From a virus, in the IMG/VR virus record IMGVR_UViG_3300046777_000527, positions 1 to 55,758 of that record: 55,758 nucleotides of DNA, one strand, 5' to 3'. The position numbers were made by a program, and so were the translations under genes. Shown here piece by piece: positions 12,803-39,147 of this stretch. Positions within the stretch are counted from its first letter, which is position 1; each line of letters opens with the position of its first letter. The notes below the pieces were generated by a model. The model did not search any database, was not told the DNA's origin, and worked only from the letters and a program-made list of their open reading frames with translations.

Positions 12803-13723
12803 TTAATCGTCAGCACTCCACGCATTAACCACATCAGCCAAGCTCTTGCCCTCCGTAGGCGCAGGCGTCGCTTTCTTGCTCGAACGCTTCGTTGGCTCAG
12901 CGATAGCGGGTTCATCCTCCTCTTCTTCCACAACCTTCGCCTTAGGCGCAGGCTTACTCGCGGTCTCGAACTCCTCGTCATTGCCCTCACCTTTATCCAC
13001 GGCGGCTACGTTCAGGATGACTGCTTTCTGGGCTTCAGGCGATACCACAGCCTCGTCTACGACTGCTTGCAGCTCAGGGTGCGACGCCACAAAATCCACG
13101 GCACGGAAGCGCACCTGCTGGTTGTCGTCCTCGTCAAAGCTCAGCTCAGTAATCACACCGTCAATGTTCTCACCGTTAGCAATCACGTAGTCGATGTAGG
13201 CGTTCAGCGGGAACAGCTGGCCAGCGCCCTTACCAAAGATTGACTTTGATGCAAGCTTAAGCTGGTAGATATCACCGTGGTTATTGCCGCCGATCTCGTC
13301 CGGTAACACAACAGCTACACGACGCTCGAACCGGCATGCGCGGGTTGTACCCTGACCGGAGCCCTTGACGTTCTGTGGGCAGGTCTCGCACTTCTTCGAC
13401 TGAGGGTCTTTGATGCTAGCGTCCGGTGCATTACCGTCGTTCGACCAGCAGTCAGGTGCTGTGGCTTCCGCGCTAGGGTCGTAGGCTTTCATGTAGAAAG
13501 TGCGCTGGGCAGTTGCCTGAGCTACACCTACCAGTACCACGCGCAGCGGTGCGTTGAACTTGCCAGCCACGTCGCCATTAACTACACGCACGAACTTGCC
13601 GTTGCGGGGTGAGATGCGCTTTAAGCGGTTAGCTTTCATCAGGCTCTGGGTCAGAGCACTGGGGGCTTTTTTACCAGCGATAGCTACGTCGCGGTTCTTA
13701 AAAATTGAAACTTCGTTAGTCAT
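12803..13723 (-). CDS. Probable ssDNA-binding protein with zinc site and acidic tail
   Basis: This 306-residue protein has four cysteines, C92, C112, C115 and C130, in a layout that could hold zinc. The region from about 130 to 215 looks beta-rich, as in an OB fold. The tail from about 240 is Ala/Pro/Lys/Glu-rich and ends in Trp-Ser-Ala-Asp-Asp. Acidic C-terminal tips recruit partners in phage and bacterial SSBs. It sits between helicase and primase genes and has SD GGAG 8 bp upstream, inside the end of the preceding gene (8-bp overlap). Family membership is inferred from shape and context; a regulatory protein is the main alternative. Confidence 0.55.
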   Translation of the reverse strand: MTNEVSIFKNRDVAIAGKKAPSALTQSLMKANRLKRISPRNGKFVRVVNGDVAGKFNAPLRVVLVGVAQATAQRTFYMKAYDPSAEATAPDCWSNDGNAPDASIKDPQSKKCETCPQNVKGSGQGTTRACRFERRVAVVLPDEIGGNNHGDIYQLKLASKSIFGKGAGQLFPLNAYIDYVIANGENIDGVITELSFDEDDNQQVRFRAVDFVASHPELQAVVDEAVVSPEAQKAVILNVAAVDKGEGNDEEFETASKPAPKAKVVEEEEDEPAIAEPTKRSSKKATPAPTEGKSLADVVNAWSADD

Positions 13724-17152: not shown

Positions 17153-17496
17153 CTTTCTAAGCCCTTCATTATCATGACCATAGCGATAGCCTGACTCAAT
17201 GTCTGACCTTCTTCTACGATAAACATCTCGTGCTCCCAGTCAAAGTGTCCGTGGTGCATAGGGTTACTCTTCTTGGTGCTTACTTCTAGCAGGCGTCCGT
17301 TTACCGCTGGCACTAGCTTGACCATAAGCTCAGGCACAGTGCTATGGTCTGAGTCAGAGCGGAGTACCGCAGTTTGTAACTCGCTGCGAACCTTTCTATT
17401 CTCTGCGCGGTGCCTTAACTTAAACGCTATCTCCCCGACGACAGACCCTGCTATCCCGCATATCACACCTACCCCCAGACTCATTGCGTCTAACAT
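17149..17496 (-). CDS. Membrane-anchored unknown protein (115 aa)
   Basis: A Gly/Val/Ile-rich segment at about 5-25 is a likely membrane anchor, followed by the basic stretch KLRHRAENRKVR. The rest is soluble, with a His-rich patch (MHHGHFDWEHE) near residue 80. It overlaps the polymerase gene by 7 bp and the small membrane protein by 4 bp. No family is recognised. The pair of adjacent membrane proteins beside the polymerase could tether replication to the membrane, but this is speculative. Confidence 0.55.
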   Translation of the reverse strand: MLDAMSLGVGVICGIAGSVVGEIAFKLRHRAENRKVRSELQTAVLRSDSDHSTVPELMVKLVPAVNGRLLEVSTKKSNPMHHGHFDWEHEMFIVEEGQTLSQAIAMVMIMKGLER

Positions 17497-19322
17497 TCTC
17501 CGTAGCTCCTTCCGTAGCCTGCCTCACAGTTAAGTGGCAGGTCTGGTGCCCACTCAGGGCGAAGTTTCATACATAGCTCGACGAACTCTTTGCCTGTGTC
17601 CTTTTCTTCTTCCGGGACTATGCAGGCGATAGCGTCGTGCACCGTCATTACTACCTTGTACTTCTTGGCAATAATCAGCATCTGATTACCGATGACAATA
17701 CGCGCTAGAGCTTGGCAAACATTCTCTGTTACCTTGCCGCCATATATCCTATTTGGTATGGTGGCTTTACCCCTCTTTGTATCGTACACCATTTCTGCAG
17801 AACCGTCATCCCTTTGTGTGACGCGCAGGTTCGGGTACTTTATGTACATACCGTTAGGTAACTTGATACCTCGTTTACCTTCTATCTTCAGCACGCCATC
17901 ACGACCTAGCGTACTTGTTTGATTGTCTCGGATATGTTCAAGAGCCTTGCCTGCAGCTTTCCAGAAGGCGGCAATCTTCGGGTACGTCTCACGATAAACG
18001 GAGATGATGCGCTGGCATTCTTCAAGCTCCAGAGTCGTTCCGAAAACTTTAAGTTGTGCTTGGAACTTCTGAGCACCCATGCCATACCCCGCCCCCAAGA
18101 TCGTAGTTTTCCCAACGAACCTCTCTTCTTTAGAAATCTGCGATATGTCTTTGTTGTAAATAGCCGACGCCATGATCTTATAAACATCCTCGCCATTCTC
18201 AAATGCCTTTACTAGATCATCCTGCCCAGCCAGCCACGCCAGCGTCCGCGCCTCGATCTGCGACGAGTCTGAGTCGATCATCACATAACCATCAGGTGCC
18301 ATGATTGCGTTTTTAAGCGCGCTTGAGCGGGGAAGGTTTTGAAGGTTTAGTTTGTCATCACCACCCCACCGTCCTGTGTGGGCGGCGTAGTAGCGTAGGG
18401 GAACTGGCATCAATCCTCTGGTAGCAATACCCATAAACCGCTCGGTACGAGTTTCTTCCAGCGTAGACTTCACGCCTAGCCGCGCAGCTACAAGAGCCTG
18501 CACTTGCGTGCTTTCATGGTCGAGCAAAGCTTTGAACTCTTCGTCACTTTTAGCAAACGCCCATGTCTCTTTGCCAGTAGTAGGGCTGATCTTACGTGGA
18601 GGCACAACACCGCATACCTTTAACAGTTGCGCGAACTTCTCGTTCGACATAAGGTCTGCTTTACCGCCAGCCAAAAAGTCTACGTCGTTGAGTAGTGTTG
18701 CTTTCTTATTGACAACAATGTGCAAGTGGTGGTTCAACCAATCCCAGTCTAGCTTTAGCACTGGCTCTGAGAACATACGGATGGTCAGATCAATCAGCTT
18801 TAGCTCAGACTGCACGAAGTGTGGCGACAGTACTTTGAATAGCTCTAGGGTTAGCTCGCAGTCGTTCTTGCAGTACTCGCCATACGCTGCAAGGTCAGCA
18901 GGGGTAAAGTCTAGGCGGCGTTTACCTAGCGCGTTTACAACTTCGGTTCCTTTCTCCCCGAGGCTGTAGTACTGTGCCAAGGCTTCAAGGCGACCTCCCA
19001 CCTCGATGGTATGCACAGCCCGTGCCATACTAAGAGTATCAAGGATACCCCTAGGCCGAATGCCAAAACACCAAGAAAGAATAGCGGCGTCAAACATAGC
19101 GTTATGAGCCAAGACCAGATTTTCCTGAAGGTTAAGCGACTCCAGAAACTTCTTGATTGTGTTGTGTGTACCTGATACCCACTGTGCGACACTTCCTTCC
19201 TCCTTTATGCCTACGCCTATAACCTCAAACCGTTCGTCGCGGATGTACTCTTCCGTGGTCAGCTTTGATAGGCTGAACTCACGGTCGTAGTAGGTTTCAA
19301 AATCAAGGCAGATTATTTTCAT
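17490..19322 (-). CDS. Family A DNA polymerase with 3'-5' exonuclease (610 aa)
   Basis: The N-terminal DEDD exonuclease is complete: D7 and E9 in DFET, D78 in AHNAMFD, and Y150/D154 in YCKND. The polymerase motif A reads SDSSQIEAR with catalytic D352, preceded by NLQNLPR. Motif B is the helix RFVGKTTILGAGYGMG. Motif C is VHDAI with D563; the usual Glu after the Asp is replaced by Ala564. The size is close to compact phage family A polymerases without a 5'-nuclease domain. It is the replicative polymerase by context. It overlaps neighbours on both sides, and its start shares ATGA with the previous stop. Confidence 0.93.
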   Translation of the reverse strand: MKIICLDFETYYDREFSLSKLTTEEYIRDERFEVIGVGIKEEGSVAQWVSGTHNTIKKFLESLNLQENLVLAHNAMFDAAILSWCFGIRPRGILDTLSMARAVHTIEVGGRLEALAQYYSLGEKGTEVVNALGKRRLDFTPADLAAYGEYCKNDCELTLELFKVLSPHFVQSELKLIDLTIRMFSEPVLKLDWDWLNHHLHIVVNKKATLLNDVDFLAGGKADLMSNEKFAQLLKVCGVVPPRKISPTTGKETWAFAKSDEEFKALLDHESTQVQALVAARLGVKSTLEETRTERFMGIATRGLMPVPLRYYAAHTGRWGGDDKLNLQNLPRSSALKNAIMAPDGYVMIDSDSSQIEARTLAWLAGQDDLVKAFENGEDVYKIMASAIYNKDISQISKEERFVGKTTILGAGYGMGAQKFQAQLKVFGTTLELEECQRIISVYRETYPKIAAFWKAAGKALEHIRDNQTSTLGRDGVLKIEGKRGIKLPNGMYIKYPNLRVTQRDDGSAEMVYDTKRGKATIPNRIYGGKVTENVCQALARIVIGNQMLIIAKKYKVVMTVHDAIACIVPEEEKDTGKEFVELCMKLRPEWAPDLPLNCEAGYGRSYGEC

Positions 19323-20357: not shown

Positions 20358-20936
20358 TTACGCATGCTTTTGTATAGCTAATTGATACCCCACCATACAT
20401 ACGGTGCACTGATTAGCAAAAGCTAAAGTGAAAAAATCAATTGCGGGTTTAGGGCGGTGTAGTAGGTCTGGCATTTCTCTCCACATGTAGTCATCAAACA
20501 ACATGATGCCGCCTTTGCGTAGTAGGCCGAACGCCATACACGCATCAGTTAAAACATCGGGGGTCGTGTGGCTTCCATCGACATAGATAAAGTCGTAGTA
20601 CTCATGCTCCCCCCGCGTTATTAAACGTCCAAGCCCGTCGTAAGATGTTGTAGCAAGCACATCGATCAGCTGTGTTTCTCTACGTGCTTCTTCTACATTT
20701 TCATCAAACGTCTGACGTAACGTAGACAAGTTCAAACCTTCATGCTCTTCTCCACCGCCGAACGTGTCAATAACTTGGATTACTCCATCATCACTTAACA
20801 TGTTCGATAGCATCCAGCAGGTAGCCCTCCCTTCAAAGCAGCCTATCTCTAAGATACGATCTACTTTACCGAGAGCGTTCTTCACTGCATGAAAGTTCTG
20901 TACGCTGTTACTGAACCAGTCTTGTGTAAACTTCAT
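20358..20936 (-). CDS. Class I SAM-dependent methyltransferase (192 aa)
   Basis: The SAM-binding glycine motif is ILEIGCFEGRA (about 28-38), followed by an acidic end of strand 2 (VIDTF), DFIYVDGSH (motif near 120) and GGIMLFDDYMW. This matches the methyltransferase 24-like fold, whose members often act on glycans or small molecules. Its place at the head of the glycosyltransferase genes suggests it caps or modifies the sugar chain. SD AAGGAG lies 9 bp upstream. It is not a DNA methyltransferase by motif: no DPPY or PCQ is seen. Confidence 0.8.
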   Translation of the reverse strand: MKFTQDWFSNSVQNFHAVKNALGKVDRILEIGCFEGRATCWMLSNMLSDDGVIQVIDTFGGGEEHEGLNLSTLRQTFDENVEEARRETQLIDVLATTSYDGLGRLITRGEHEYYDFIYVDGSHTTPDVLTDACMAFGLLRKGGIMLFDDYMWREMPDLLHRPKPAIDFFTLAFANQCTVCMVGYQLAIQKHA

Positions 20937-20941
20937 GCGAC

Positions 20942-21703
20942 TTACTCCTTAGGCTGTATGGGGGTAGGCTTAGGCATCAGGCTACCGTCGAAGATGTGCG
21001 TACCTACGTGACCCAGCTGCGCCCACGGCGCTGCCCATACTTTGCCTTCGCACTTCTCGCGCCATATCTTGCAGAAGTGATAGTCCTCCGATAGCAGGCG
21101 CTCACCGATAGGCTCGATGCTGGTAGCAAAAAATTCGTGAATGCGCTCTTGTCCGATATTGCCGCCAAGATCGTTGGTGTCGTTGATATAGCTAGGCACA
21201 TGCTCTTTCAAAGACTCGAACACCTCACGCTTGATAAGCATGAACCCTGTGCCGCCATTCCATATTTCAACAGGGCTACCTATCTCTACACGCTGCTCTT
21301 CCGCATAGCCGACGAGGTTGACTACGAACGAACCTGAGTATTTGCGTAGCTCGTGCGCGGGTACGCCAGCTTGCGCCGCTGCATGTATCGCGCCCCAGTT
21401 AATTTCTTTCTTGGGGTATATGCCGCAGATAATCGGCTTATCCGCTAGTATCATAGGCAGAACATCTTTAGCATCAAAGCGTATATCAGCATCAATAAAC
21501 ATCAGGTGCGTGAAGTCCGTCTTTAAGAACCCATGCACCAGTGCGTTGCGGGCGCGCTGAATCAACGACTCGTTAAACAAGAAGCTAGCGGCTGTATCGA
21601 TGCGGTTATCTCGCAGTATGTTTTGCAACGTCATGATCGACTGCGTGTAGTATCCAGCGCACATGCCGCCGTACATAGGTGTGGCTATAAAAAGTTTTGT
21701 CAT
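20942..21703 (-). CDS. GT-A glycosyltransferase-like protein (253 aa), paralogue A
   Basis: The fold starts with TPMYGG, and a metal-binding DxD lies at 71-73 (FIDADIRF), followed by CGIYPKK. Later elements GGTGFMLIKREVF and SEDYHFC are shared with the paralogue at 22444-23208. The family transfers sugars from nucleotide-sugar donors. The donor and acceptor are not readable from the sequence. It belongs to a run of sugar genes and has a good SD (GGAG, 8 bp). Confidence 0.75.
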   Translation of the reverse strand: MTKLFIATPMYGGMCAGYYTQSIMTLQNILRDNRIDTAASFLFNESLIQRARNALVHGFLKTDFTHLMFIDADIRFDAKDVLPMILADKPIICGIYPKKEINWGAIHAAAQAGVPAHELRKYSGSFVVNLVGYAEEQRVEIGSPVEIWNGGTGFMLIKREVFESLKEHVPSYINDTNDLGGNIGQERIHEFFATSIEPIGERLLSEDYHFCKIWREKCEGKVWAAPWAQLGHVGTHIFDGSLMPKPTPIQPKE

Positions 21704-21724
21704 TATCAGCTCCAGTTAGTTATG

Positions 21725-22447
21725 TTACGTTTTTCGCCACGGAAAATCTCCGTCATATTTTTTCAGCATGTGCTCGTTGCCTCTTATAAAGAACTCCGCG
21801 CTTACTGAATCCGCTCTGCTTGCCACTCTATAGTTCACGCTGTACTGCCCACTTGTATCAAAAACTTTCTGGGTATGCATCATGAACATCGACAACAACC
21901 TATCTACCTCCGGTTGCTCGTCTGGATGCCTCGCCCTGCGATACCATGCAGGAGAAAACTGCAGTGCGGCTACCTTCGGTATTAAAAAACAATTCAAGTC
22001 CACGAACAGATCGTTGATGACTGAAACCCACTTACCTAATGACTCGCAGTCATCGTTGCATACGTACTCCCCCTCTTGATTAACTATCTTACGTAACGAA
22101 TACGCCCATGTATTTCCTTTTTCTATAACGTCAACAAGCGACTGAATATGGTTTTCTTCATACCAATTATCTTCGTCCAGAAAACATAGGAAGTCACCTT
22201 TAGCAACGTAGGTCATAGCCCCGTAGATTCTGTGCCCGTTGTACTGGTCTTTGCCTGTTGCATACGGCAAATTAATGACGTCTACATTCTGATAGTCCTG
22301 CAAGGCAATACGTGCTTTGGGGTAGTCGCCATCCACTACAACTAGATGCTGTATGTTTTTATAGGTCTGTGCCTTAACAGAATCCATAGCCTGTTTAAAG
22401 ACAGGTGCTCCCGTCGTAGGCGTTATCACAGTAACCAAAGGGTTCAT
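21725..22447 (-). CDS. Family 2 glycosyltransferase (240 aa)
   Basis: The N-terminus has VITPTTGA followed by a long helix and VVVDGDY, typical of the GT2 nucleotide-binding half. The metal-binding triad is DED at 91-93 in FLDEDNWY. The enzyme transfers a sugar from a nucleotide donor, probably to phage or host surface glycan. It overlaps the paralogous glycosyltransferase upstream by ATGA. The catalytic base region late in the protein is less clear, as is common in short GT2 members. Confidence 0.8.
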   Translation of the reverse strand: MNPLVTVITPTTGAPVFKQAMDSVKAQTYKNIQHLVVVDGDYPKARIALQDYQNVDVINLPYATGKDQYNGHRIYGAMTYVAKGDFLCFLDEDNWYEENHIQSLVDVIEKGNTWAYSLRKIVNQEGEYVCNDDCESLGKWVSVINDLFVDLNCFLIPKVAALQFSPAWYRRARHPDEQPEVDRLLSMFMMHTQKVFDTSGQYSVNYRVASRADSVSAEFFIRGNEHMLKKYDGDFPWRKT

Positions 22448-23208
22448 GTATTGTTCCTTCCCGCCCTCATCAAGTCTCCTGCATATACATGCTGACCTAC
22501 GTGGCGCAACTCTATCGACGGGTCAGCGTATATTTGCCCGCCTTCTGTCTTCCACAGCTCACAGAAGTGATAGTCCTCAGAGAGCAACAGCCCTAGCTCA
22601 GTGATGCTGGTGCCAAAGAACTCGCGTGTTAAGGGGGCTAAGAACTGACCGTTTGCAGGGTTGGTAATCAAGCTAGTGCGGTACGTAGGAACCTTAAAGC
22701 GCAGCGCTTTAAACACATCACGGTGTATCAACATGAACCCTGTGCCGCCGTGCAGGACTTCTACCAAACCATTTTCGTCCAGCGGAACCTTGTCTCCATC
22801 ATCAGCCACAGCATTTAGCACGTAGCTACAACCAAACTTATCTATATCCTGCTCACCACGCAGCGCGGCCTCGCGTATCCTATCCCAGAACAAAAATTTC
22901 TTGGGGTAGATGCCACACACCATCTGTTTCTCGTGCTGCAGTAGCTTGTAGATACCATCGGTGGGGAACCAGATGTCGGCGTCGATGAACATCAGGTAAT
23001 CGTCCCGTGTCTCGTCGAGGAAGTACCGCACGATCTCGTTACGGGCGCGGGTAATCAGGGCTTCCTTGTTCATGAACTGCCAGCGGGTCTTGATGCCCTG
23101 ATTCTCAAGATAGCTGACGCTACGTAACATGCTGTCTACATACTCCATATACATCGCACCACCATACGCAGGTGTGCCGATCATGATGGTAGGTTTGCCG
23201 TCGATCAT
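22444..23208 (-). CDS. GT-A glycosyltransferase-like protein (254 aa), paralogue B
   Basis: It shares order and motifs with paralogue A: TPAYGG near the start, DxD at 76-78 (FIDADIWF), CGIYPKK, HGGTGFMLIHRDVF and SEDYHFCELW. Paralogue A keeps the same layout at nearly the same length, so duplication followed by divergence is likely. Both probably recognise different donors or acceptors. It overlaps its neighbours by ATGA on both sides, so the cassette is one transcription unit. Confidence 0.75.
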   Translation of the reverse strand: MIDGKPTIMIGTPAYGGAMYMEYVDSMLRSVSYLENQGIKTRWQFMNKEALITRARNEIVRYFLDETRDDYLMFIDADIWFPTDGIYKLLQHEKQMVCGIYPKKFLFWDRIREAALRGEQDIDKFGCSYVLNAVADDGDKVPLDENGLVEVLHGGTGFMLIHRDVFKALRFKVPTYRTSLITNPANGQFLAPLTREFFGTSITELGLLLSEDYHFCELWKTEGGQIYADPSIELRHVGQHVYAGDLMRAGRNNT

Positions 23209-24149
23209 ACATTCACCATGTGTTTAAGTATTGTGTCTACAAAATACTTGTTGTAAAACTGCTCGGATTGAGGAGAAGCAAGGAACTCCCGCGCTGCAGC
23301 GAGGTATGTCTCGTACTCACTGCTCGGCATCTCGTGGAGATACCTATGTAGTTCTTCGTATGACTGGAACTTCTTAAGGTCAACAAAGCACTCAGGCGGT
23401 ACGTGGTCGTACACATTAGGTGCGCCCCAGTAAATAGGCACAACACCGACCATAAAGCAGTCAGTCATCTTTTCACTGACGTAGCCATGCGCGTTGTTGC
23501 AGTTCTCATACGTGATGCAGAAGCGGTAGTTCGACAGCGTCTTTAGTTTGTCATCGGTAGAGCCTCTGTATGTGGGGAAGTTATACATACCCCAGAACCG
23601 CCCCCACAGATCAAAATCGTTCGGCGCGTACCGCGTGAAGAACTCTATAGCTTCTATGCGTCTTTCATACAAGCTGTTGGGGTGCGAGCTTCTCTTGTGC
23701 GTGTTCATCAGGCACAACAGTTTGCGGTTGTAGTACTCTGAAAGCGGTTTATCGAAGTTAAACAAAACAGAGTCTTGTAGGTTTGTCGTGAAGTTAGACT
23801 TAATAAACTTCTTGCCATCGACTAACCTATCATCCCACGTAAAAACCTTCTCGCACATACCTATGAAGTCATCATGGTAGTTGTTAGGGATTATTAAATC
23901 AGGTTCAAACATCACAGCGAATATGCGCGGCGCTTTGGCTTTAATGGCAGAGGGTCTGTCCATCAGAATAAGCAGGTCGCCTTCGTCGCACTGGTCAGGT
24001 GTGAACATATCGATGCCACGTTCTTTTGCTGCTGCATACAGCTCGTTCCATGGGCGCATTAGACCAGCGCCGATGTCACTTTCAAGGGTATGAAACAATG
24101 TCCCGTTGGTAGTAACAAAGTCATACGTACTTTGAACTATTACTTTCAT
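23205..24149 (-). CDS. GT10 alpha-1,3-fucosyltransferase-like enzyme (314 aa)
   Basis: The C-terminal half carries the GT10 signature from about 208 to 242, reading YRFCITYEN, then HGYVSEKMTD and VPIYWGAP. E215, N219 and the SEK triad at 225-227 line the GDP-fucose site in this family. Known members transfer fucose from GDP-fucose to N-acetylglucosamine-type acceptors. The N-terminal half is a smaller Rossmann-like domain. It has a strong SD (GAAGGAGC). GT10 genes are known in bacterial O-antigen and some viral loci. A phage copy suggests remodelling of the host surface or virion. Confidence 0.88.
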   Translation of the reverse strand: MKVIVQSTYDFVTTNGTLFHTLESDIGAGLMRPWNELYAAAKERGIDMFTPDQCDEGDLLILMDRPSAIKAKAPRIFAVMFEPDLIIPNNYHDDFIGMCEKVFTWDDRLVDGKKFIKSNFTTNLQDSVLFNFDKPLSEYYNRKLLCLMNTHKRSSHPNSLYERRIEAIEFFTRYAPNDFDLWGRFWGMYNFPTYRGSTDDKLKTLSNYRFCITYENCNNAHGYVSEKMTDCFMVGVVPIYWGAPNVYDHVPPECFVDLKKFQSYEELHRYLHEMPSSEYETYLAAAREFLASPQSEQFYNKYFVDTILKHMVNV

Positions 24150-25581: not shown

Positions 25582-25739
25582 AGTGCTCTCCCGTGTGTCG
25601 TAGGGTTAGGCGGGACAGGGCGGTGCTTTGCTTTCTCTACTATCTTCCACCCCGGCTGTATGAACTTCACAGCTTCCCATCGCTCCCAGAATTTTCTGAA
25701 TAGCTTTCCTTCTTCGTCGTAGACTTCGAATCTCATCAT
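25575..25739 (-). CDS. Small basic Trp-rich protein (54 aa)
   Basis: This frame is shorter than most gene finders accept, but it fills the gap exactly. It starts with ATG overlapping the stop of the XRE gene by ATGA and ends inside the start of the 68-residue gene. The protein opens MMRFEVYDEEGK, has four Trp residues and a Pro-rich tail (RPVPPNPTTHG). No family is recognised. Both junctions fit translational coupling, which is the main support. Confidence 0.65.
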   Translation of the reverse strand: MMRFEVYDEEGKLFRKFWERWEAVKFIQPGWKIVEKAKHRPVPPNPTTHGRALW

Positions 25740-25954
25740 TTCCTCGCAAGCTCACGTATCTGCTCGATGGTCAGATTAGTATTGTCGTAAATAGCAAGGA
25801 TGATTTTAGCCGTGACGCCCTTCTTGTTGTTGCGTATACGGCTGATGACAGGCGCAGTCACGTTGATCTTCTTTGCTATGGCTAGGTCAGTGTCGCCTAT
25901 GCCTATCTCACGCAGGTAGTCCAGTAGTGCGTTAGGGACTTTAGGTTCACTCAT
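25736..25954 (-). CDS. XRE/Cro-type helix-turn-helix regulator (72 aa)
   Basis: The protein has a single helix-turn-helix: residues about 21-47 read DTDLAIAKKINV, then APVISRIRNN, with the second helix as recognition helix. The length suits a stand-alone Cro-like repressor without a cleavage or dimer domain. It may control early operons. Its target is not known, and the CTTACA array at 35.2-35.5 kb is one candidate. It is coupled to the 54-residue gene downstream. Confidence 0.75.
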   Translation of the reverse strand: MSEPKVPNALLDYLREIGIGDTDLAIAKKINVTAPVISRIRNNKKGVTAKIILAIYDNTNLTIEQIRELARK

Positions 25955-29815: not shown

Positions 29816-31027
29816 CTAGTCATTGATGTGAATAGTTTGACCCACTGGAGATGTGACAGTGTTGCCGCCACAGATGACCCACAGTACAGGCGAGTCCCAC
29901 TCACCGCCCCAGTCGCTGCCCACGTACCCGTCGGTAAGAATGATGGAGCACTCAGGCTTGATATTCTTCTCCTTAAGGTAGCGAGTAATACAGCTCGGAG
30001 AAGTACCGCCACCACCCTTAGGCTTAGTCGATTCAACCAGCGAACCCATCGATGTAGCGTCGTATTCTTCATGGCCTGCCACTTCACCGTCCCAGTACAG
30101 CAGATCAACTTTGTCAGGCGTAACTTCATCAGCTATCCCCTTAACTTCTGACAGGAATGCGGCTAACTCCTGCCCCCCGATGGAACCACTTGTATCCACG
30201 CCGATCACTAGGTGTCCGACTTTCTCGCTGATAAGTGTGGGCATGTACGTATCGCCCGACAGGAACCGTCTGTTTACTCGCCGCCATGATGAACTATCCT
30301 TCCCCTTACAGATTGATTTGACATACTCACGTAGCACCTCGCGCCAGTTGACCTTAGGTTCAAGCATCTCCTGCAGCTCACGGCTTAGCCCACCTGCGCC
30401 CTCACCCTTCAACTTCTTATGTGCCATAGCACCTTGACGTAACGCCTGATCTACTTCCTTCTCAAGCTCACGCTTCTCTGCATCAGACAAAGCATCAGCA
30501 CCACCCCAGTCATGCTCGTCGATGCCATCACCCATACCACCGTTCTTCGGGTCGAACATACCCTTACCGTCTTTCTTGTCCTGCTTAAGCAGGTCGAACA
30601 CTTGCTTAGCGTTCATGCCACGATACTTCTCATCGACTAGACCGATCTGCTTACCACCTAGCACTGGGAACTTTAGGTGTACGCCCTTAGGGTCAAGGTC
30701 TTTAAGCTGGATATTGATGACGTAGTCGCACGCCATGTTAGCTAGCTGCGCATCTTCCTTCCACAGCTTCACCCATGTAGTTAAGTGTCGATACGCTTTG
30801 TGCATAGCCTCGTGCAGTACGACAAAGGCAAGTTCCTTCTCGTTGATGATCTTCACAAACTCACGACCATAGAACTCGTCGCGTCCGTTGGTTGCTGCCG
30901 TAGGTATGGTGTCGATGATGCTGGTCTTACCGACCATAAGAATGCCTGACCACATTGCGAACTCAGGGTTGCGCATCAGTGCAATCTTCACCTTCTTCAG
31001 CTTACGTTCTTCTTTATCTATTGCCAT
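29816..31027 (-). CDS. VWA-like protein with zinc-peptidase domain (403 aa)
   Basis: Start chosen at ATG 31027 after AAAGGAGC; a 40-residue extension has no SD. The N-terminal domain has HEAMH (72-76), the zinc-binding HExxH, within LHEAMHKAYRH. The C-terminal half is a VWA fold with a MIDAS triad DTSGS at 278-282, then GGGGTSP and ILTDGY. This two-part layout matches the DUF2201-type family. With a MoxR ATPase such proteins act as chaperone or remodelling complexes in which VWA binds a metal-bridged partner. The peptidase may cut a host or virion protein; the target is unknown. Confidence 0.82.
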   Translation of the reverse strand: MAIDKEERKLKKVKIALMRNPEFAMWSGILMVGKTSIIDTIPTAATNGRDEFYGREFVKIINEKELAFVVLHEAMHKAYRHLTTWVKLWKEDAQLANMACDYVINIQLKDLDPKGVHLKFPVLGGKQIGLVDEKYRGMNAKQVFDLLKQDKKDGKGMFDPKNGGMGDGIDEHDWGGADALSDAEKRELEKEVDQALRQGAMAHKKLKGEGAGGLSRELQEMLEPKVNWREVLREYVKSICKGKDSSSWRRVNRRFLSGDTYMPTLISEKVGHLVIGVDTSGSIGGQELAAFLSEVKGIADEVTPDKVDLLYWDGEVAGHEEYDATSMGSLVESTKPKGGGGTSPSCITRYLKEKNIKPECSIILTDGYVGSDWGGEWDSPVLWVICGGNTVTSPVGQTIHIND

Positions 31028-31236
31028 AGGTCTAGCTCCTTTTGTGCTGGTGGGTCTAACAGTTGAATCATGCGCAGCTTTTCTTCTGCTTCCTTGCGTG
31101 TCATGGGTGGAGTTATGGATTCTTCTGTTTTTCCATCTAGCCTCCACACTCTGTACCAGATAGGTTCTCGTCGCTCGTTATGTTGATAAACGTCCTCATT
31201 ATCTTTAGCAAGCCACGCTATTATGTATTCACGCAT
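31018..31236 (-). CDS. Small unknown protein (72 aa)
   Basis: A charged, Trp-rich small protein with a helical C-terminus (TRKEAEEKLRMIQLL). It starts at an ATG after GAGGAGG and overlaps the VWA gene by 10 bp. The SD is very close to the ATG, so a start a few codons later is possible. No family or motif is known. Confidence 0.55.
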   Translation of the reverse strand: MREYIIAWLAKDNEDVYQHNERREPIWYRVWRLDGKTEESITPPMTRKEAEEKLRMIQLLDPPAQKELDLWQ

Positions 31237-31588
31237 CCTCCTCGTCCTCCGTTTCCTCCTTACTCACGTACCGCTGGTCTGGTTCTATGTGCAGTTTTAA
31301 GTAGCCGATCATTCGGTCAAAGCTACCTACAGTTACGCGCTTGATAGCAAACCTACGTGGGGGCTGTATACCCACGGCTCTATAGAACGCAAAACTAGCG
31401 TTGTCCACATCCCAGTGCATAACCTGATATCTGAACCTACCGTTGCGCTCCCACCCGTTGATAGATAGTCCTACCCGTAGACCGCCTACAATCAGATCGG
31501 CATACTTATCTCGCAGCTTGCACATAGCCATGTACTTCTTCATCTTGGCACTGTGCCATAACGCTCTGTATCTATTGCGTACTTTCAT
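31229..31588 (-). CDS. Unknown basic protein (119 aa)
   Basis: The start is ATG 31588, with GGGGAGTGAGG just upstream; a GTG two codons earlier overlaps the preceding stop. The N-terminus is Arg/Lys-rich (MKVRNRYRALWHSAKMKKY). The middle is beta-rich, and the end is acidic (ETEDEEDA). A basic start and acidic tail suggest nucleic-acid or protein binding, but no known fold is visible. Confidence 0.6.
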   Translation of the reverse strand: MKVRNRYRALWHSAKMKKYMAMCKLRDKYADLIVGGLRVGLSINGWERNGRFRYQVMHWDVDNASFAFYRAVGIQPPRRFAIKRVTVGSFDRMIGYLKLHIEPDQRYVSKEETEDEEDA

Positions 31589-31590
31589 CC

Positions 31591-31806
31591 TCACTCCCCT
31601 ATCAGTAGTCTGACGTAGCGGTTTATCTCGGCTTGGTCAGTGGTTTCTAAGATGATCTCGGTCATGGGTGAATTGAAGCGATAGATAGCATAGCGATACT
31701 CGTCTTTCTTCTCGTCATGCCACCCTGCTACTGCATACCCTGCTTCTCTTAGGTTCGCAACAGTCTTGTTCACCACCACCCACTTACCATCGAACTCGAT
31801 AGCCAT
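31591..31806 (-). CDS. Small unknown protein (71 aa)
   Basis: A compact beta-rich protein (KWVVVNKTVANLR, then YAIYRFN), with no Cys or membrane segment. Its ATG shares an A with the stop of the AAA+ ATPase (TAATG), so the two are translationally coupled. That makes it a candidate small partner of the ATPase. Function is unknown. Confidence 0.6.
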   Translation of the reverse strand: MAIEFDGKWVVVNKTVANLREAGYAVAGWHDEKKDEYRYAIYRFNSPMTEIILETTDQAEINRYVRLLIGE

Positions 31807-32873
31807 TACAGCAAGTCCTCGTTTTTAGCCACCCAGTCGCTGAATGCTTTGCATGCGAACGCAACCTTCTGCTTTGTCTGTGACTTAGCGATGTTGATAG
31901 CGAACGCTGCTTGCCACTCTGGTTCGAACCGCTCAAGGTACTGCATGAAGGGAGTGATGGTGTCTTTCTCTACCTTACTGATAGCACCGAACACCACGAT
32001 TGCAGATGCACCTGCAGACTTAGGCACAGGCGTATGTAGTGGGTCTTTGATTGTTGACTCCCACGTAGGAAGCTGGTCAGCAAAGTCAAGGTAGGCTTGG
32101 AAGTCACGCGCAGCTGGCTCACCGATTGCGCCTTTCAATGCAGACAGTACGCTGTCGTTGTCTAGCGTCTTGCGAACCTTGACGATGTGTGATGCACGTT
32201 CGAGTGAACGCGGGGATACGTAAGCCTGCATAGGCTTAGTGGGGTTGAAGATATAGGGATTCTCTTTCTGGCTTTCGTCTGTATAGCTTGCGAACAGCTG
32301 CGGGAATTGCTTACCGAACGCAAGTATCTCTGGTGCAATGTCGTTGTTCATAGCCCAGTCAGCCCATTCGTCGAACGATGGCTTCGATACCTGCACAGGA
32401 ATTATGCGGTTTAGAGTGTGCGCTTTAAGTACGTCGCCCACGCCGTCTGTGGCTAGGTTGCCAGTCAGAAACACGATAGTCTCAGGATGCACAGGGATAT
32501 CACCGAGGCGAGGATTGTGCGCCTCTAGCAACGGATGCAGCATGTTAATCACTGCAGGAAAGCCCTTACTGAACTCGTCGAGCATGACGATCATAGGCTT
32601 GTTGGTATGGAACCCGAACCTAGCGTTAGGATAGTAGCGGGTAGTCTTTGTCTCATGGTCGATGACAGGCATGGCGATGTCACCTAAGTCCATGTTGGGC
32701 ACATCAATATAGGCAAGCCCGTGGTTCGGGAACCGCTCTTTCAGAGCGGACATAATTGAAGATTTGCCGATGCCCGGCTCACCACGCAACAAGTATCGGT
32801 TCATCGGGGTAGATGCAATCAGGTTAGCTGCTTGCTTCAGAGTTACGGTAGTGCCAAAGTTTATAGCTGCCAT
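31806..32873 (-). CDS. MoxR-type AAA+ ATPase (355 aa)
   Basis: Walker A is GEPGIGKS at 31-38, Walker B MIVMLDEF at 94-101 and sensor 1 TGN at 137-139. Sensor 2 is not obvious. The MoxR group works with VWA proteins to remodel or load cofactors onto targets, and the VWA/zinc-peptidase protein lies about 0.8 kb downstream. The leader has AAGGAGCTAAC before the ATG, identical over 18 bases to a copy in the 9.7 kb intergenic region. The ATPase probably heads a functional unit with the VWA and DUF3150-like genes. Confidence 0.85.
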   Translation of the reverse strand: MAAINFGTTVTLKQAANLIASTPMNRYLLRGEPGIGKSSIMSALKERFPNHGLAYIDVPNMDLGDIAMPVIDHETKTTRYYPNARFGFHTNKPMIVMLDEFSKGFPAVINMLHPLLEAHNPRLGDIPVHPETIVFLTGNLATDGVGDVLKAHTLNRIIPVQVSKPSFDEWADWAMNNDIAPEILAFGKQFPQLFASYTDESQKENPYIFNPTKPMQAYVSPRSLERASHIVKVRKTLDNDSVLSALKGAIGEPAARDFQAYLDFADQLPTWESTIKDPLHTPVPKSAGASAIVVFGAISKVEKDTITPFMQYLERFEPEWQAAFAINIAKSQTKQKVAFACKAFSDWVAKNEDLL

Positions 32874-35099: not shown

Positions 35100-35195
35100 T
35101 TAGAAAACCCAGATGATGAGTGCGAATCCTACGATTGCACCGATGAATGCACCGACTATTGCGGCGACGATTGCTTCCATCTCATGATCTTGCAT
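35100..35195 (-). CDS. Tiny membrane peptide with glycine zipper (31 aa)
   Basis: The peptide is MQDHEMEAIV followed by AAIVGAFIGAIVGFALII and a short aromatic end. The G-x3-G-x3-G spacing is a glycine zipper that packs helices in membranes. A perfect SD (AGGAGGTCACA) precedes the ATG. It is the first gene after the CTTACA array, so it is the promoter-proximal gene of this leftward run. It could form a small membrane oligomer. Lysis control is possible but not shown. Confidence 0.65.
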   Translation of the reverse strand: MQDHEMEAIVAAIVGAFIGAIVGFALIIWVF

Positions 35196-35332
35196 TGTGA
35201 CCTCCTGAGTGTAAGGAAAATACCCCTGTTTGTAAGGAAAAAAGGGCTGAATCTAACGGAACTCTTACAAAAGAAAAGCGCACCTGAGAATCTTACAATG
35301 TAGCAATGGTGCGGTGTTTGAGATGTTCTTAT

Positions 35333-35364
35333 ATTATATTATTATTATTATGTAAGAATGTAAG
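35333..35364 (-). promoter_or_regulatory. Candidate leftward promoter within CTTACA array
   Basis: On the leftward strand TATAAT is exact at 35338-35333. A CTTACA copy at 35364-35359 could serve as a weak -35 with an adjacent AT-rich spacer (about 20 bp), or 17 bp with the alternative -10 TAATAT. The transcript would start about 130 bp before the first small gene. If the CTTACA motifs are operators, a regulator would cover this promoter. The -35 match is poor, so confidence is low. Confidence 0.35.
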
Positions 35365-35392
35365 AGGATTTTAAAAACAGAGCGACACCCCG

Positions 35393-35411
35393 CTGCCTAT
35401 TTTTTAGGCAG
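35393..35411. other. Hairpin with T5 loop inside the array
   Basis: CTGCCTA at 35393-35399 pairs with TAGGCAG at 35405-35411 around a TTTTT loop. It sits between CTTACA copies at 35359 and 35416. It is not followed by a T tract on either strand, so it is unlikely to be a terminator. A replication or structure-specific protein could recognise it. Confidence 0.45.
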
Positions 35412-35574
35412 GTGCTGTAAGACCTCTCCGACGAGAATTTTCGGAATCGTTCAATTTTTCGTCTTACAATCTTACAATGCTGTAAGTCTTTGATTTTAAA
35501 GGGAAAATAGTGTAAGATTTCATCTGAGCAAGTCTTACAGTCTTACAATGCTTGCCTTTTAAAACCAAAGCGGA

Positions 35575-35597
35575 TATGCTGCTGATACAGCAGCATA
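35575..35597 (-). terminator. Perfect 10-bp hairpin after the 165-residue gene
   Basis: TATGCTGCTG at 35575-35584 pairs perfectly with CAGCAGCATA at 35588-35597, with an ATA loop. It is 16 bp downstream of the gene at 35614-36111 on the leftward strand. A TTTT run lies about 12 bp after it, so it may act as a weak terminator or as a transcript-stabilising hairpin. It would separate this gene from the array-driven operon. Confidence 0.5.
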
Positions 35598-35613
35598 CCC
35601 AAGCCCGCCCCAC

Positions 35614-36111
35614 TTACTCCGCTTTTGCTGGTACGAGTGCGCGCAGTGGCTCCAGTAACTCCATATGCGCGATAGTGACCGACTCTTGCTGCGCGAATTT
35701 TTCGCACTGTTTGACTAGTGCTTCAATCTTAACGGCAAGGTCATACATTGAGACTGGGTTCGGTGCTTTGATAGCTTCGTACCACGGAAGTTCTGCTAAT
35801 GATACGAACAATTCCATAGGGTCTGTTTCTACATCGTCGCGCTTACGATAGATAAAGTTCTTGACAGTCTTATCGTACTCAAGCTTGCCGAACTTTTCCA
35901 AATAAGCAACGAAGCTATTAAGGCGCAAGCCTTTATTAGCTGATAGAGTTTCATAGATACCCTGAGCTACTGTGACATCACCATGCACGTTAGCGTAGCC
36001 GATAGCTGAGACTGCGAGTTTCTGAATATCACGGTTTAGTGATTTGCCGCGACCCGATACCGATTTTGCGAGTTCGATAACTTGATCTTTGGTAAGCAGA
36101 TTTGCTGACAT
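35614..36111 (-). CDS. Unknown early phage protein (165 aa)
   Basis: Start is ATG 36111 after AAGGGGG; an upstream ATG five codons earlier is less suited. The protein starts MSANLLTKDQVIELAK, then RGKSLNRDIQKLAVS, and is helical with a basic patch (IYRKRDDVE). Similar small proteins recur in phage early regions, but no function is known to me. It is alone between two large non-coding control regions, so it may be the early regulator that acts on them. A DNA-binding role is inferred only from position. Confidence 0.65.
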   Translation of the reverse strand: MSANLLTKDQVIELAKSVSGRGKSLNRDIQKLAVSAIGYANVHGDVTVAQGIYETLSANKGLRLNSFVAYLEKFGKLEYDKTVKNFIYRKRDDVETDPMELFVSLAELPWYEAIKAPNPVSMYDLAVKIEALVKQCEKFAQQESVTIAHMELLEPLRALVPAKAE

Positions 36112-36135
36112 GATAACCCCCTTCATTGTTTAATT

Positions 36136-36180: not shown

Positions 36181-36751
36181 CGGCGCGCTGGCATATGACA
36201 CACCGAAAACAATGTTTAGCCTTGCATTTTTACTAACGCGGTTCTAAACCGCTAATTAGTAGCACGATACAGAACGAACAACACATTAGCGAAAAGATAA
36301 TGCGCGCCCTGTATGCACTATGCTAGGGTTTGCCTGACCGAGCGATTCTTAATTGTCGCCTGATTCCAGTCAGCATGTATCCTCAGTCACTACGCACGAA
36401 CCCCTACCTGCAAGCCCTTGCACGTTTCACTGAGGTTTGCATAACCCCATCACCCTAGTTTTCCCCCATTACAGAGGCGGTGACCTGAGCGCGGCATTTC
36501 GGTGCGCGCCCTATCCCTACACACCGATATGCACTAGGCTCGGTGTCGCCCTACGATTCCATTATGCCCGTATTGCACCGCAACATCGTTGTGGATACGT
36601 TAGCAATAATAAGCGCAGGCTCTGCGAGGCAAAGGCGTAACGTCAAAAGCGAAAGTCAAAAGCGCACAGCTTGGATCACCACGACGGCTGGTGGCATAAC
36701 GAAAAAATTCGTCGGAGCACCACATACCCCCCACCCCCCAGATATGCAGAG
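36181..36751. other. Non-coding control region without called gene
   Basis: No convincing gene was found in this stretch. A hairpin lies at 36232-36260, with GCGGTT and AACCGC as its core stem. Two segments, near 36302 and 36502, share TGCGCGCCCT and TATGCACTA. The region switches from leftward to rightward genes and thus likely holds divergent promoters. No clear -10/-35 pair was seen. Confidence 0.5.
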
Positions 36752-36871
36752 TAGGAGTCCCAACAAACACATACACACTAATTTGCACAACCAATACCAC
36801 CCCCCATAACAATTCTTACACTACATATCAAAATCACAATATTCAGAACACCCCCCAATAGGAGTCCCAAC
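36733..36871. repeat. C6 tracts and 13-bp direct repeats
   Basis: ACCCCCCA occurs at 36733-36740, 36799-36806 and 36850-36857; another C6 run is adjacent to the first. TAGGAGTCCCAAC is repeated exactly at 36752-36764 and 36859-36871, 107 bp apart, each after a C6 tract. One more CTTACA lies at 36815-36820. The complementary strand has G6 runs that could form G-quadruplexes. Repeated sites next to the small terminase gene fit a packaging (pac) recognition region. Confidence 0.55.
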
Positions 36872-36989
36872 CTCCTCTGCAAAACGGGGTATATTTATAT
36901 TTCCAGCGGCGGTGTGGTGGGTACACGCAGACCGACAAGGCTAGGTTGCTCGGTTCGAATCCGAGACGCTGGACTCCTTTACAAAACGG
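36872..36989. repeat. 16-bp direct repeats flanking the tRNA-like element
   Basis: CTCCTCTGCAAAACGG at 36872-36887 and CTCCTTTACAAAACGG at 36974-36989 differ at two bases. They are 102 bp apart and lie at either side of the tRNA-like element. Such boundaries could come from insertion of a short segment, or mark a two-site binding region. The left copy directly follows a TAGGAGTCCCAAC repeat. Confidence 0.55.
36902..36974 (+). other. tRNA-like element, probably degenerate
   Basis: TCCAGCG (36902-36908) pairs perfectly with CGCTGGA (36967-36973). A D-arm of GTGT (36912-36915) and ACAC (36923-36926), and a T-arm CTCGG TTCGAAT CCGAG (36949-36965) with the canonical TTCGAAT loop, are clear. The 20 bases between them do not give a canonical 7-nt anticodon loop: at best GACC and GGTT pair around 10 nt. 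Position 8 is not T, and the 3' end is not CCA. It looks like a decayed or tRNA-mimic structure ahead of the small terminase gene. A working tRNA is not supported. Confidence 0.5.
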
Positions 36990-37013
36990 CACCCCAGTGT
37001 TATAACCGCGCCC

Positions 37014-37643
37014 ATGGTTAACATCGAACCTACAGCGGGGCCTGCTGTGCCTTACAACACGGACCCCGAGGAAGCCAAAACCTTCCACGACACACTAGCT
37101 GTGGCGGCAAACACTGCTGACCTATTAAAAGAGCTAGGTGCTCCGATGGAGACAGAAAAGGACGACATAGACAAAGTCGTCAACCTCCTTAAAGCCAGCG
37201 AACGACATAAAGCCCCAGTAGCTTTGCGAGACTCCGGTACCGCCAGCGCCGCCGCTTTGTTCCTAAAGTCATATGCCAATAAAGTAGCTGCCGATGCAGC
37301 TGAGATACGCAGTGCTATCACGGCAAAACTGATGGAGATTGCGAACTGTGGCGACCCACGGTATGAACTCAAAGCTCTGGAACTGCTAGGCAAACATAGT
37401 GACATCGGCCTCTTTACTGAGCGCAGCGAGATAACGATCAACCACAAGACATCCGACGACCTAGAAGCAGCTATTAAAGAACGAGTAAAGCGGCTGCTCA
37501 ATGCGACCACCGTGGATGTGACCCCCGTAATAGATAATCTTGATGAAGAACTCGGCGTGATAGACGACGAGCCGCGTGCGTTGCTAGACGAGATAGGCGG
37601 AAAAGCCGACGAGGGGGACGATGACGACACCCACCCTCAATAA
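37014..37643 (+). CDS. terS: Terminase small subunit
   Basis: The 209-residue protein has a helical, Ala/Lys-rich middle and the segment KALELLGKHSDIGLFTER (about 120-137), which resembles many phage small terminases. It ends in an acidic tail. It overlaps the large terminase gene by 23 bp, the usual order. The ATG has no visible SD and lies 40 bp after the tRNA-like element and the direct repeats. TerS binds the packaging signal on concatemeric DNA and hands it to TerL; the repeats just upstream are the natural candidate. Confidence 0.8.
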   Translation: MVNIEPTAGPAVPYNTDPEEAKTFHDTLAVAANTADLLKELGAPMETEKDDIDKVVNLLKASERHKAPVALRDSGTASAAALFLKSYANKVAADAAEIRSAITAKLMEIANCGDPRYELKALELLGKHSDIGLFTERSEITINHKTSDDLEAAIKERVKRLLNATTVDVTPVIDNLDEELGVIDDEPRALLDEIGGKADEGDDDDTHPQ

Positions 37644-39147
37644 TCTAAGCCTGAAAGACATACCTAGCATCCTCCCGCTGCTTAGTCAGTCGGAGCAAAG
37701 GCAGCTGCTGCTTGAGCTAGAGACGCTAGCAGAGCTAAAGAGAAAGGAAGGCGCGCAGAAATACTTCATGAACTTCGTTCAGGAGGTGTGGCCGACGTTC
37801 ATTGTGGGGCGGCATCACCGCAGGATGGCGGAAGCGTTTGAAAGGGTGGCAAATGGGACTTGTAAACGTCTTATTATTAATATGCCTCCTCGCCATACTA
37901 AGTCCGAATTTGCTTCTTATCTTCTCCCTGCTTGGTTTTTAGGGAAATTTCCGCATAAAAAGGTCATTCAGACGTCCCATACTGCTGAACTAGCGGTAGG
38001 TTTTGGTCGAAAAGTGCGAAATTTGGTGGATTCCGAGGTCTATCAGCGCATTTTTCCGGGTGTAGGACTGCAAACTGACAGTAAAGCAGCCGGTCGATGG
38101 AACACAAACAAGGCTGGTGACTACTTCGCTATCGGTGTGGGGGGTGCCGTGACCGGTAAAGGTGCGGATATCCTGATAATTGACGACCCGCACAGCGAAC
38201 AAGAGGCTGCACTGGCTCAAGTGAACCCCGAAATCTACGACAAAGTGTACGAGTGGTACACATCTGGCCCACGTCAGCGTCTACAACCGGGTGGAAGCAT
38301 AGTTATAGTGATGACTCGGTGGTCTTTGCGTGATCTGACCGGGCAAGTTATCAAATCTTCAGCCGCACGCGGCGGAGATGAGTGGGAAGTCATCGAGTTT
38401 CCTGCATTATTGCCATCTGGTAACCCACTTTGGCCTGAGTTCTGGTCTCTTACGGAGCTGGAAGCACTAAAGACGGAACTGCCGAACGCAAAGTGGATGG
38501 CTCAGTACCAGCAACAGCCCACATCCGACAGTGCGGCTATTGTTAAGCGTGAGTGGTGGAGGGTCTGGGAGGGTGAGGACCCGCCTGCATGTGACTTTAT
38601 CCTGCAAACATGGGATACGGCGCACGAGAAGAACACCCGGGCGGACTTTAGTGCCTGCACCACGTGGGGGGTGTGGTACAACCCCGAGGACAACGACCAG
38701 CCTAACTTGATACTGCTAAATAGCTTCAAAGAGCGGCTGGAGTGGGTGGAGCTCAAGAAGCGCGCCTTTGAGCACTACAAGGAGTGGGAGCCCGACAACA
38801 TCCTGATAGAGAAAAAAGCCACGGGTGGGCCGCTGATATATGAGTTCAGGGCCATGGGCATACCTGCCATGGAGTTTACGCCGGGCAAGGGCAACGACAA
38901 GATAAGTAGGCTAAATGCCGTCTCAGACATCATAGCTTCAGGTAAGGTGTGGGTACCTGAGACACGGTGGGCCGAGGAGCTGGTGGACGAGATAGCGTCA
39001 TTCCCCAGTGGAGAGCATGACGACTTAGTTGACGCGACCACACTGGCGCTGATGAGGTTTAGACAAGGTGGGTTCATACGCCTGCCTAGCGACGAGCCGG
39101 ACGAGATCAAGTGGTTCAAGTCGCACAGACGCGAAGCATATTATTAA
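37621..39147 (+). CDS. terL: Terminase large subunit
   Basis: The ATPase half has a variant Walker A, MPPRHTKS at 88-95, and Walker B ILIIDDPH (184-191). The nuclease half has D332 in WDTA, E397 in IEKKATG and the HDDLVDATT cluster with D468 and D471. The length (508) is normal. It packages DNA into the prohead with TerS and portal. Bases about 37850-38060 are AT-rich with T-ending codons unlike flanking segments, which hints at recombination within the gene. Confidence 0.95.
   Translation: MTTPTLNNLSLKDIPSILPLLSQSEQRQLLLELETLAELKRKEGAQKYFMNFVQEVWPTFIVGRHHRRMAEAFERVANGTCKRLIINMPPRHTKSEFASYLLPAWFLGKFPHKKVIQTSHTAELAVGFGRKVRNLVDSEVYQRIFPGVGLQTDSKAAGRWNTNKAGDYFAIGVGGAVTGKGADILIIDDPHSEQEAALAQVNPEIYDKVYEWYTSGPRQRLQPGGSIVIVMTRWSLRDLTGQVIKSSAARGGDEWEVIEFPALLPSGNPLWPEFWSLTELEALKTELPNAKWMAQYQQQPTSDSAAIVKREWWRVWEGEDPPACDFILQTWDTAHEKNTRADFSACTTWGVWYNPEDNDQPNLILLNSFKERLEWVELKKRAFEHYKEWEPDNILIEKKATGGPLIYEFRAMGIPAMEFTPGKGNDKISRLNAVSDIIASGKVWVPETRWAEELVDEIASFPSGEHDDLVDATTLALMRFRQGGFIRLPSDEPDEIKWFKSHRREAYY

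Follow-up and report, generated by a model that had tools for sequence, protein, structure and literature searches.

Iteron origins, IHF and the DUF927 initiator helicases of staphylococcal islands are already known, and the alpha protein of phage P4 is a primase-helicase that recognises short origin repeats by itself. The C-terminal domain of the SaPI Rep helicase reads an origin of short iterons, and two hexamers apparently take part; the DUF927 protein Cch is related to SaPIbov1 Rep, and Cch2 binds iterons through its C-terminal domain (PMC7581432). In mobile elements, AEP primases are found joined to DUF927 and to a C-terminal winged helix for which origin recognition has been proposed (PMC5862659), and IHF acts at iteron plasmid origins, e.g. 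those of pSC101 and R6K (PMC4980987).

The virus DNA analysed here (the window, one IMG/VR record of 55,758 bases) contains an array of short repeats at the head of a leftward replication operon. This array is probably the replication origin of the phage, with a primase-helicase as its proposed initiator, and this is the best supported of the readings weighed below. As in SaPIbov1, a DUF927-type helicase, for which an initiator role is proposed here, goes together with many short iterons; the element-specific origin and the proposed two-hexamer binding are those of the SaPI (PMC7581432). In a SaPI the rep gene is followed directly by the origin, whereas about 22 kb separate the phage array (35.2–35.5 kb) from the gene of the primase-helicase (9.9–12.7 kb), a distance that counts against an origin of the SaPI type. 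Further differences are the fusion of the phage helicase to an AEP primase, the IHF sites at the phage array, and the terminase and capsid genes that the phage carries itself, while a SaPI is a satellite island. SCCmec Cch (5dgk) is the closest solved structure to the phage primase-helicase, but Cch2, a member of a different helicase family, goes with three iterons, whereas the phage arrays have 10–18 copies in both orientations and IHF sites. Like the origins of pSC101 and R6K, the array combines iterons with A+T-rich DNA and with an IHF site whose place relative to the iterons is fixed; it differs from them in that no DnaA boxes were found, that the repeats are opposed rather than only direct, and that the candidate initiator is a helicase-primase and not a RepA/pi-type protein. 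P4 alpha is, like the phage protein, a primase-helicase, of a different helicase family.

The iteron array and its surroundings

Within positions 35210–35547, 13 exact copies of CTTACA/TGTAAG were counted against about 0.2 expected locally, seven reading TGTAAG and six CTTACA on the plus strand. On both strands of the whole window the word was found 32 times, against 31.9 in shuffled sequence, and the excess is therefore confined to the array. The counts agree with the preliminary description of this DNA, which had reported 13 copies in both orientations where fewer than one was expected; the word was not dense elsewhere in the genome, which had been set beforehand as a check against that claim. 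The hexamer is embedded in a longer motif, approximately [A/T][A/T]TGTAAGA, and forms its core.

As previously described, there are three same-orientation pairs with 8 bp spacing (35351/35359, 35463/35471 and 35534/35542) and a single dyad (35471–35486) whose arms are 4 nt apart. In the layout analysis, the left tandem pair TGTAAGAATGTAAG (35351–35364, plus strand) borders a core of conserved length (35365–35462), which measures 104 bp from the last left site to the first right site and holds an extra TGTAAG at 35416. The right tandem pair CTTACAATCTTACA (35463–35476, minus strand) is opposed to the left one, and the third pair CTTACAGTCTTACA, from the word count, lies at 35534–35547 on the minus strand. 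A consensus match to an IHF site, AATCAAAGACTTA, was found at 35483–35495 on the minus strand, 20 bp to the right of the first iteron on the right-hand side. The A+T-rich DNA that had been noted among the copies corresponds to a tract of 89% A+T at 35325–35352, which adjoins the left pair and is a candidate unwinding element; in the window it lies beside the tandem pairs and not between them, and in some relatives it is not A+T-rich, two points that count against the origin reading. A search of Rfam across 30–40 kb gave no credible match.

No convincing gene was found inside the array, which sits between an ORF at 35103–35195 and a 170-aa gene at 35614–36126 (both minus strand). The gene-free stretch followed by a small leftward gene had also been described before; the gene is a 31-codon ORF with a ribosome-binding site, the first of the leftward operon, 68% identical in G001 and encoding a 31-residue putative membrane peptide. 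The 170-aa gene P0001 (phrog_1448, no assigned function) was previously given as a 165-residue gene, and a terminator-like hairpin (35571–35601, minus strand) closes it and sets it apart from the array. Across the relatives (G003–G016), the slot at 35614–36126 between array and small terminase gene is occupied by unrelated protein families (three clusters and singletons), and one contig, G007, carries two paralogues of the slot gene, one on each side of the array.

The leftward operon extends to 9.9 kb. It includes a PolA-type DNA polymerase (17490–19322, minus strand), an exonuclease, a helicase and a resolvase-like protein, together with a conserved replication-module protein of 306 aa (12803–13723, minus strand) that is probably SSB-like, judging by its acidic C-terminal tail. 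The 943-aa primase-helicase (9902–12733, minus strand) comes last. A MoxR-type ATPase and VWA/metallopeptidase-like (DUF2201) pair at 29816–32873 (minus strand) is kept in nearly all relatives that reach that far, and a methyltransferase gene clustered with several glycosyltransferase-like ones at 20358–24149 (minus strand) is not shared by most relatives.

The rightward genes begin with a likely terminase small subunit, TerS (37014–37643, plus strand), so called from its place beside TerL and its own sequence, with no family hit, and the large subunit, TerL (37621–39147, plus strand). Cumulative GC skew reaches its minimum at about 36–38 kb; since the genes change direction there as well, it was not used as proof of an origin. 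Upstream of the TerS gene, at 36902–36973 (plus strand), a tRNA-like cloverleaf with a 7-bp acceptor stem and a GGTTCGAATCC T arm was observed; ARAGORN reported none with default settings, while relaxed settings gave a number of doubtful tRNA calls in the stretch, one of them a tRNA-Cys at this place. In 27 of 68 relatives (L007–L086) the contig starts 600–1200 bp upstream of TerL (36700–37014 in the window), in C-run-rich (ACCCCC) non-coding DNA, which may represent a genome end, a repeat-broken assembly or a hypervariable stretch.

The position between the terminator-like hairpin and the first leftward ORF is where the promoter of the operon would be expected. The promoter is probably inside the array or next to it, so that origin and operator roles could coexist. 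An early operator alone, in which a phage regulator would bind the words cooperatively, IHF would shape the complex and the promoter of the leftward operon would be controlled with no replication start, is an unlikely explanation in our estimate. Opposed operators with IHF occur in other phages, e.g. Mu, and weak promoter-like sites were found within the A+T tract, in about the number expected by chance. Against this explanation, no promoter element at a fixed place and no recognisable regulator conserved with the array were found, the genes for the XRE protein and the 170-aa protein not being common to the array-bearing relatives at large, and a symmetric two-sided core of fixed length would be more typical of an origin.

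Fixed layout and drifting word among related phages

Relatives were collected by a scan with the terminase protein and are mostly uncultured; named phages gave no match to the array region at the DNA level. In the terminase gene of one relative (G033:C1:46786–48303, minus strand, large subunit) one in-frame TAG was reported. Most relatives with enough upstream sequence carry a dense array about 2–3 kb upstream of the terminase gene, where the leftward replication operon begins. Conservation in related phages had been named as a check by the preliminary description, and in the L005 contig (75% identity in P0001) 13 of 13 sites are kept at corresponding places with altered spacers.

Words in the relatives were counted as TGT-anchored hexamers because an unconstrained EM motif search drifted to low-complexity words in several genomes. 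High-scoring hexamer clusters elsewhere (e.g. CCAAGG in G011) were set aside as repetitive coding sequence. TGTAAG was the word in the window, G001–G005, G013 and G017; TGTTAG in G006, G007, G016, G019, L024 and L056; TGTTAT/C in G008, G009, G014, G015, G020, G038, G039, L032, L069 and L077; and TGTTCT/C in L027 and L073. G010 has mixed words and shares TGTAAG with the window. The distant named relative Planktothrix phage Pag-Yong1 (L091) has nine copies of GTCATA at the corresponding place. This GTCATAC array lies upstream of TerL at about 13013–13366, no DUF927 primase-helicase was detected in the phage, and the array is perhaps the same device run by another initiator.

The layout stays fixed while the word drifts by lineage. 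Arrays contain 10–18 copies in both orientations, and in 31 of 34 a core of 103–123 bp is bounded by a rightward site and a leftward site. Left of the core, sites point rightward in 147 cases and leftward in 61; right of it, 155 point leftward and 47 rightward. Among same-orientation pairs a spacing of 8 bp is commonest (48 pairs), followed by 7 bp (19 pairs), and 7 bp is also the commonest spacing of back-to-back pairs (20). Of the 34 arrays, 14 have both of the opposed tandem pairs at the flanks; when gaps and orientations were permuted inside each array, 2000 trials gave 0.25 such arrays on average and never more than 3, a comparison that overstates certainty because the core rule was set after the arrays had been viewed and related arrays are not independent.

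A second conserved element within the arrays, AATCAANGACTTA, fits the published IHF consensus WATCAANNNNTTR (PMC10380432). Over 43 array regions, 33 consensus sites were counted where the same genomes would predict 1.5 (22-fold enrichment), and 27 of the 43 arrays have such a site. Offsets were measured from the first leftward iteron in the right pair: every one of the 20 IHF sites on the right side of the core begins at +20 to +23 or +30 to +33, while the other seven fall at −154 to −177. The two sets of right-side positions are about 10 bp apart, which suggests helical phasing. DnaA boxes were not enriched (2 against 1.3 expected over the 43 arrays), and the array of the window has none.

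Candidate binding proteins

The 943-aa protein contains a DUF927 domain (PF06048, 3.9e-25) and matches SCCmec Cch (5dgk; profile 5.9e-12, fold 4.6e-13) and SaPIbov1 Rep (8tch; profile 3.7e-10, fold 5.2e-12). It also matches a PrimPol domain (6zp9), both by profile and by the fold of the predicted structure. In that structure, parts of the helicase were predicted with low confidence, and the C-terminal region (about residues 851–916) appears winged-helix-like. On these sequence and fold matches, the phage's own primase-helicase is the likely initiator.

The preliminary description had instead named the XRE protein or the product of the 165-residue gene as the binder, and neither turned out to be conserved with the array. 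The XRE gene (25736–25954) gave no tblastn hit in the 19 contigs and records searched, some of them too short to reach it, and on that ground the protein was rejected as array binder. The 165/170-residue gene was found only in the close relatives G001, G002 and L004, with unrelated proteins in its place in the other array contigs. Its product P0001 was likewise rejected because it does not go with the array; the predicted structure has low confidence (mean pLDDT of 63) and gave no significant fold match.

Covariation of the word with 13 core proteins, assessed by exclusive shared residues and by segment identity, singled out no binder in a sample with few independent TGTAAG contigs. In G019, which has the word TGTTAG and a helicase and polymerase close to those of the window, the primase-helicase and the 306-aa protein are more diverged than expected. 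G010 has TGTAAG in common with the window, yet the last 43 residues of its primase-helicase are 21% identical. The divergence in G019 is no more than suggestive of a link between word and protein, and G010 points the opposite way.

A true origin with a different initiator, either an uncharacterised leftward protein or a host protein, appears improbable, about as much so as the early operator. The covariation analysis, which did not point to the primase-helicase, speaks for it, as does Pag-Yong1 with its different word and no detected DUF927 protein. On the other hand, the remaining conserved proteins are HNH-like, exonuclease, polymerase, resolvase, SSB-like, Gam-like, VWA and MoxR proteins, with no known initiator among them, and the related DUF927 helicases of SaPIs are initiators.

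The terminase genes raise the further question of a packaging start. At lambda cosB, repeats are combined with IHF, and gpNu1 and IHF bind there; the phage resembles it in having repeated sites and IHF near terminase genes, and TerS with IHF might bind the array in the same manner. We regard this as very unlikely, more so than the other alternatives. Wherever a contig extends to the likely TerS gene, that gene goes with the array. Four phages that share TerL (DSL-LC04, 023Pt_psg01, HTVC027P and HTVC023P) were found to be without this array, a DUF927 protein or a detectable TerS match, although an empty profile result shows nothing by itself. As TerS, too, went undetected in these phages, which packaging would also predict, they give no means of telling the primase-helicase and TerS apart. 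Unlike cosB, however, the array lies about 1.5 kb from the TerS gene, with an unrelated, changing gene between, and has 10–18 copies in a symmetric layout, and no cos site was identified. Moreover, the word did not track TerS residues, and the contig starts of relatives, which need not mark genome ends, cluster upstream of TerL and not at the array.

Proposed mechanism and significance

The preliminary description had left the choice between an iteron origin and a dense early operator. The first is now well supported: the array is dense and keeps a two-sided layout among relatives, its IHF sites are phased, an A+T tract adjoins it, it stands at the head of the replication operon, and the genome encodes a primase-helicase resembling SaPI Rep. 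The second has become the less likely role.

For a replication origin read by the primase-helicase, we infer origin activity, word binding, the identity of the binder and the place of melting along the following lines. Copies of the primase-helicase would bind the short words as iterons, with the winged helix at the C-terminus as the probable contact, and two opposed complexes would assemble on the opposed tandem pairs flanking the 104 bp core. IHF would bend the DNA beside the right-hand pair, at a position phased to that pair. Melting of the core or of the adjoining A+T tract would then allow two helicases to be loaded in opposite directions, and the fused primase would begin synthesis. Related phages would hold to the layout while the word drifts, presumably along with its recogniser.

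The wider proposal concerns a widespread family of uncultured phages with an origin of the SaPI type, an MCM-like initiator helicase with a fused primase, helically phased IHF, and a word that was rewritten several times on a fixed architecture; we consider the case for it evenly balanced. A non-exhaustive full-text search of the literature returned no report of a DUF927 initiator combined with IHF and a drifting word on a fixed scaffold in a large phage family. If true, the proposal would provide dozens of natural initiator-origin pairs in which a change of specificity without loss of function could be tested, the mutual compatibility of related pairs would become testable, and sequence by itself would suffice to mark origins in phage genomes from metagenomes. 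The array would offer a natural record of an origin and its reading protein changing together.
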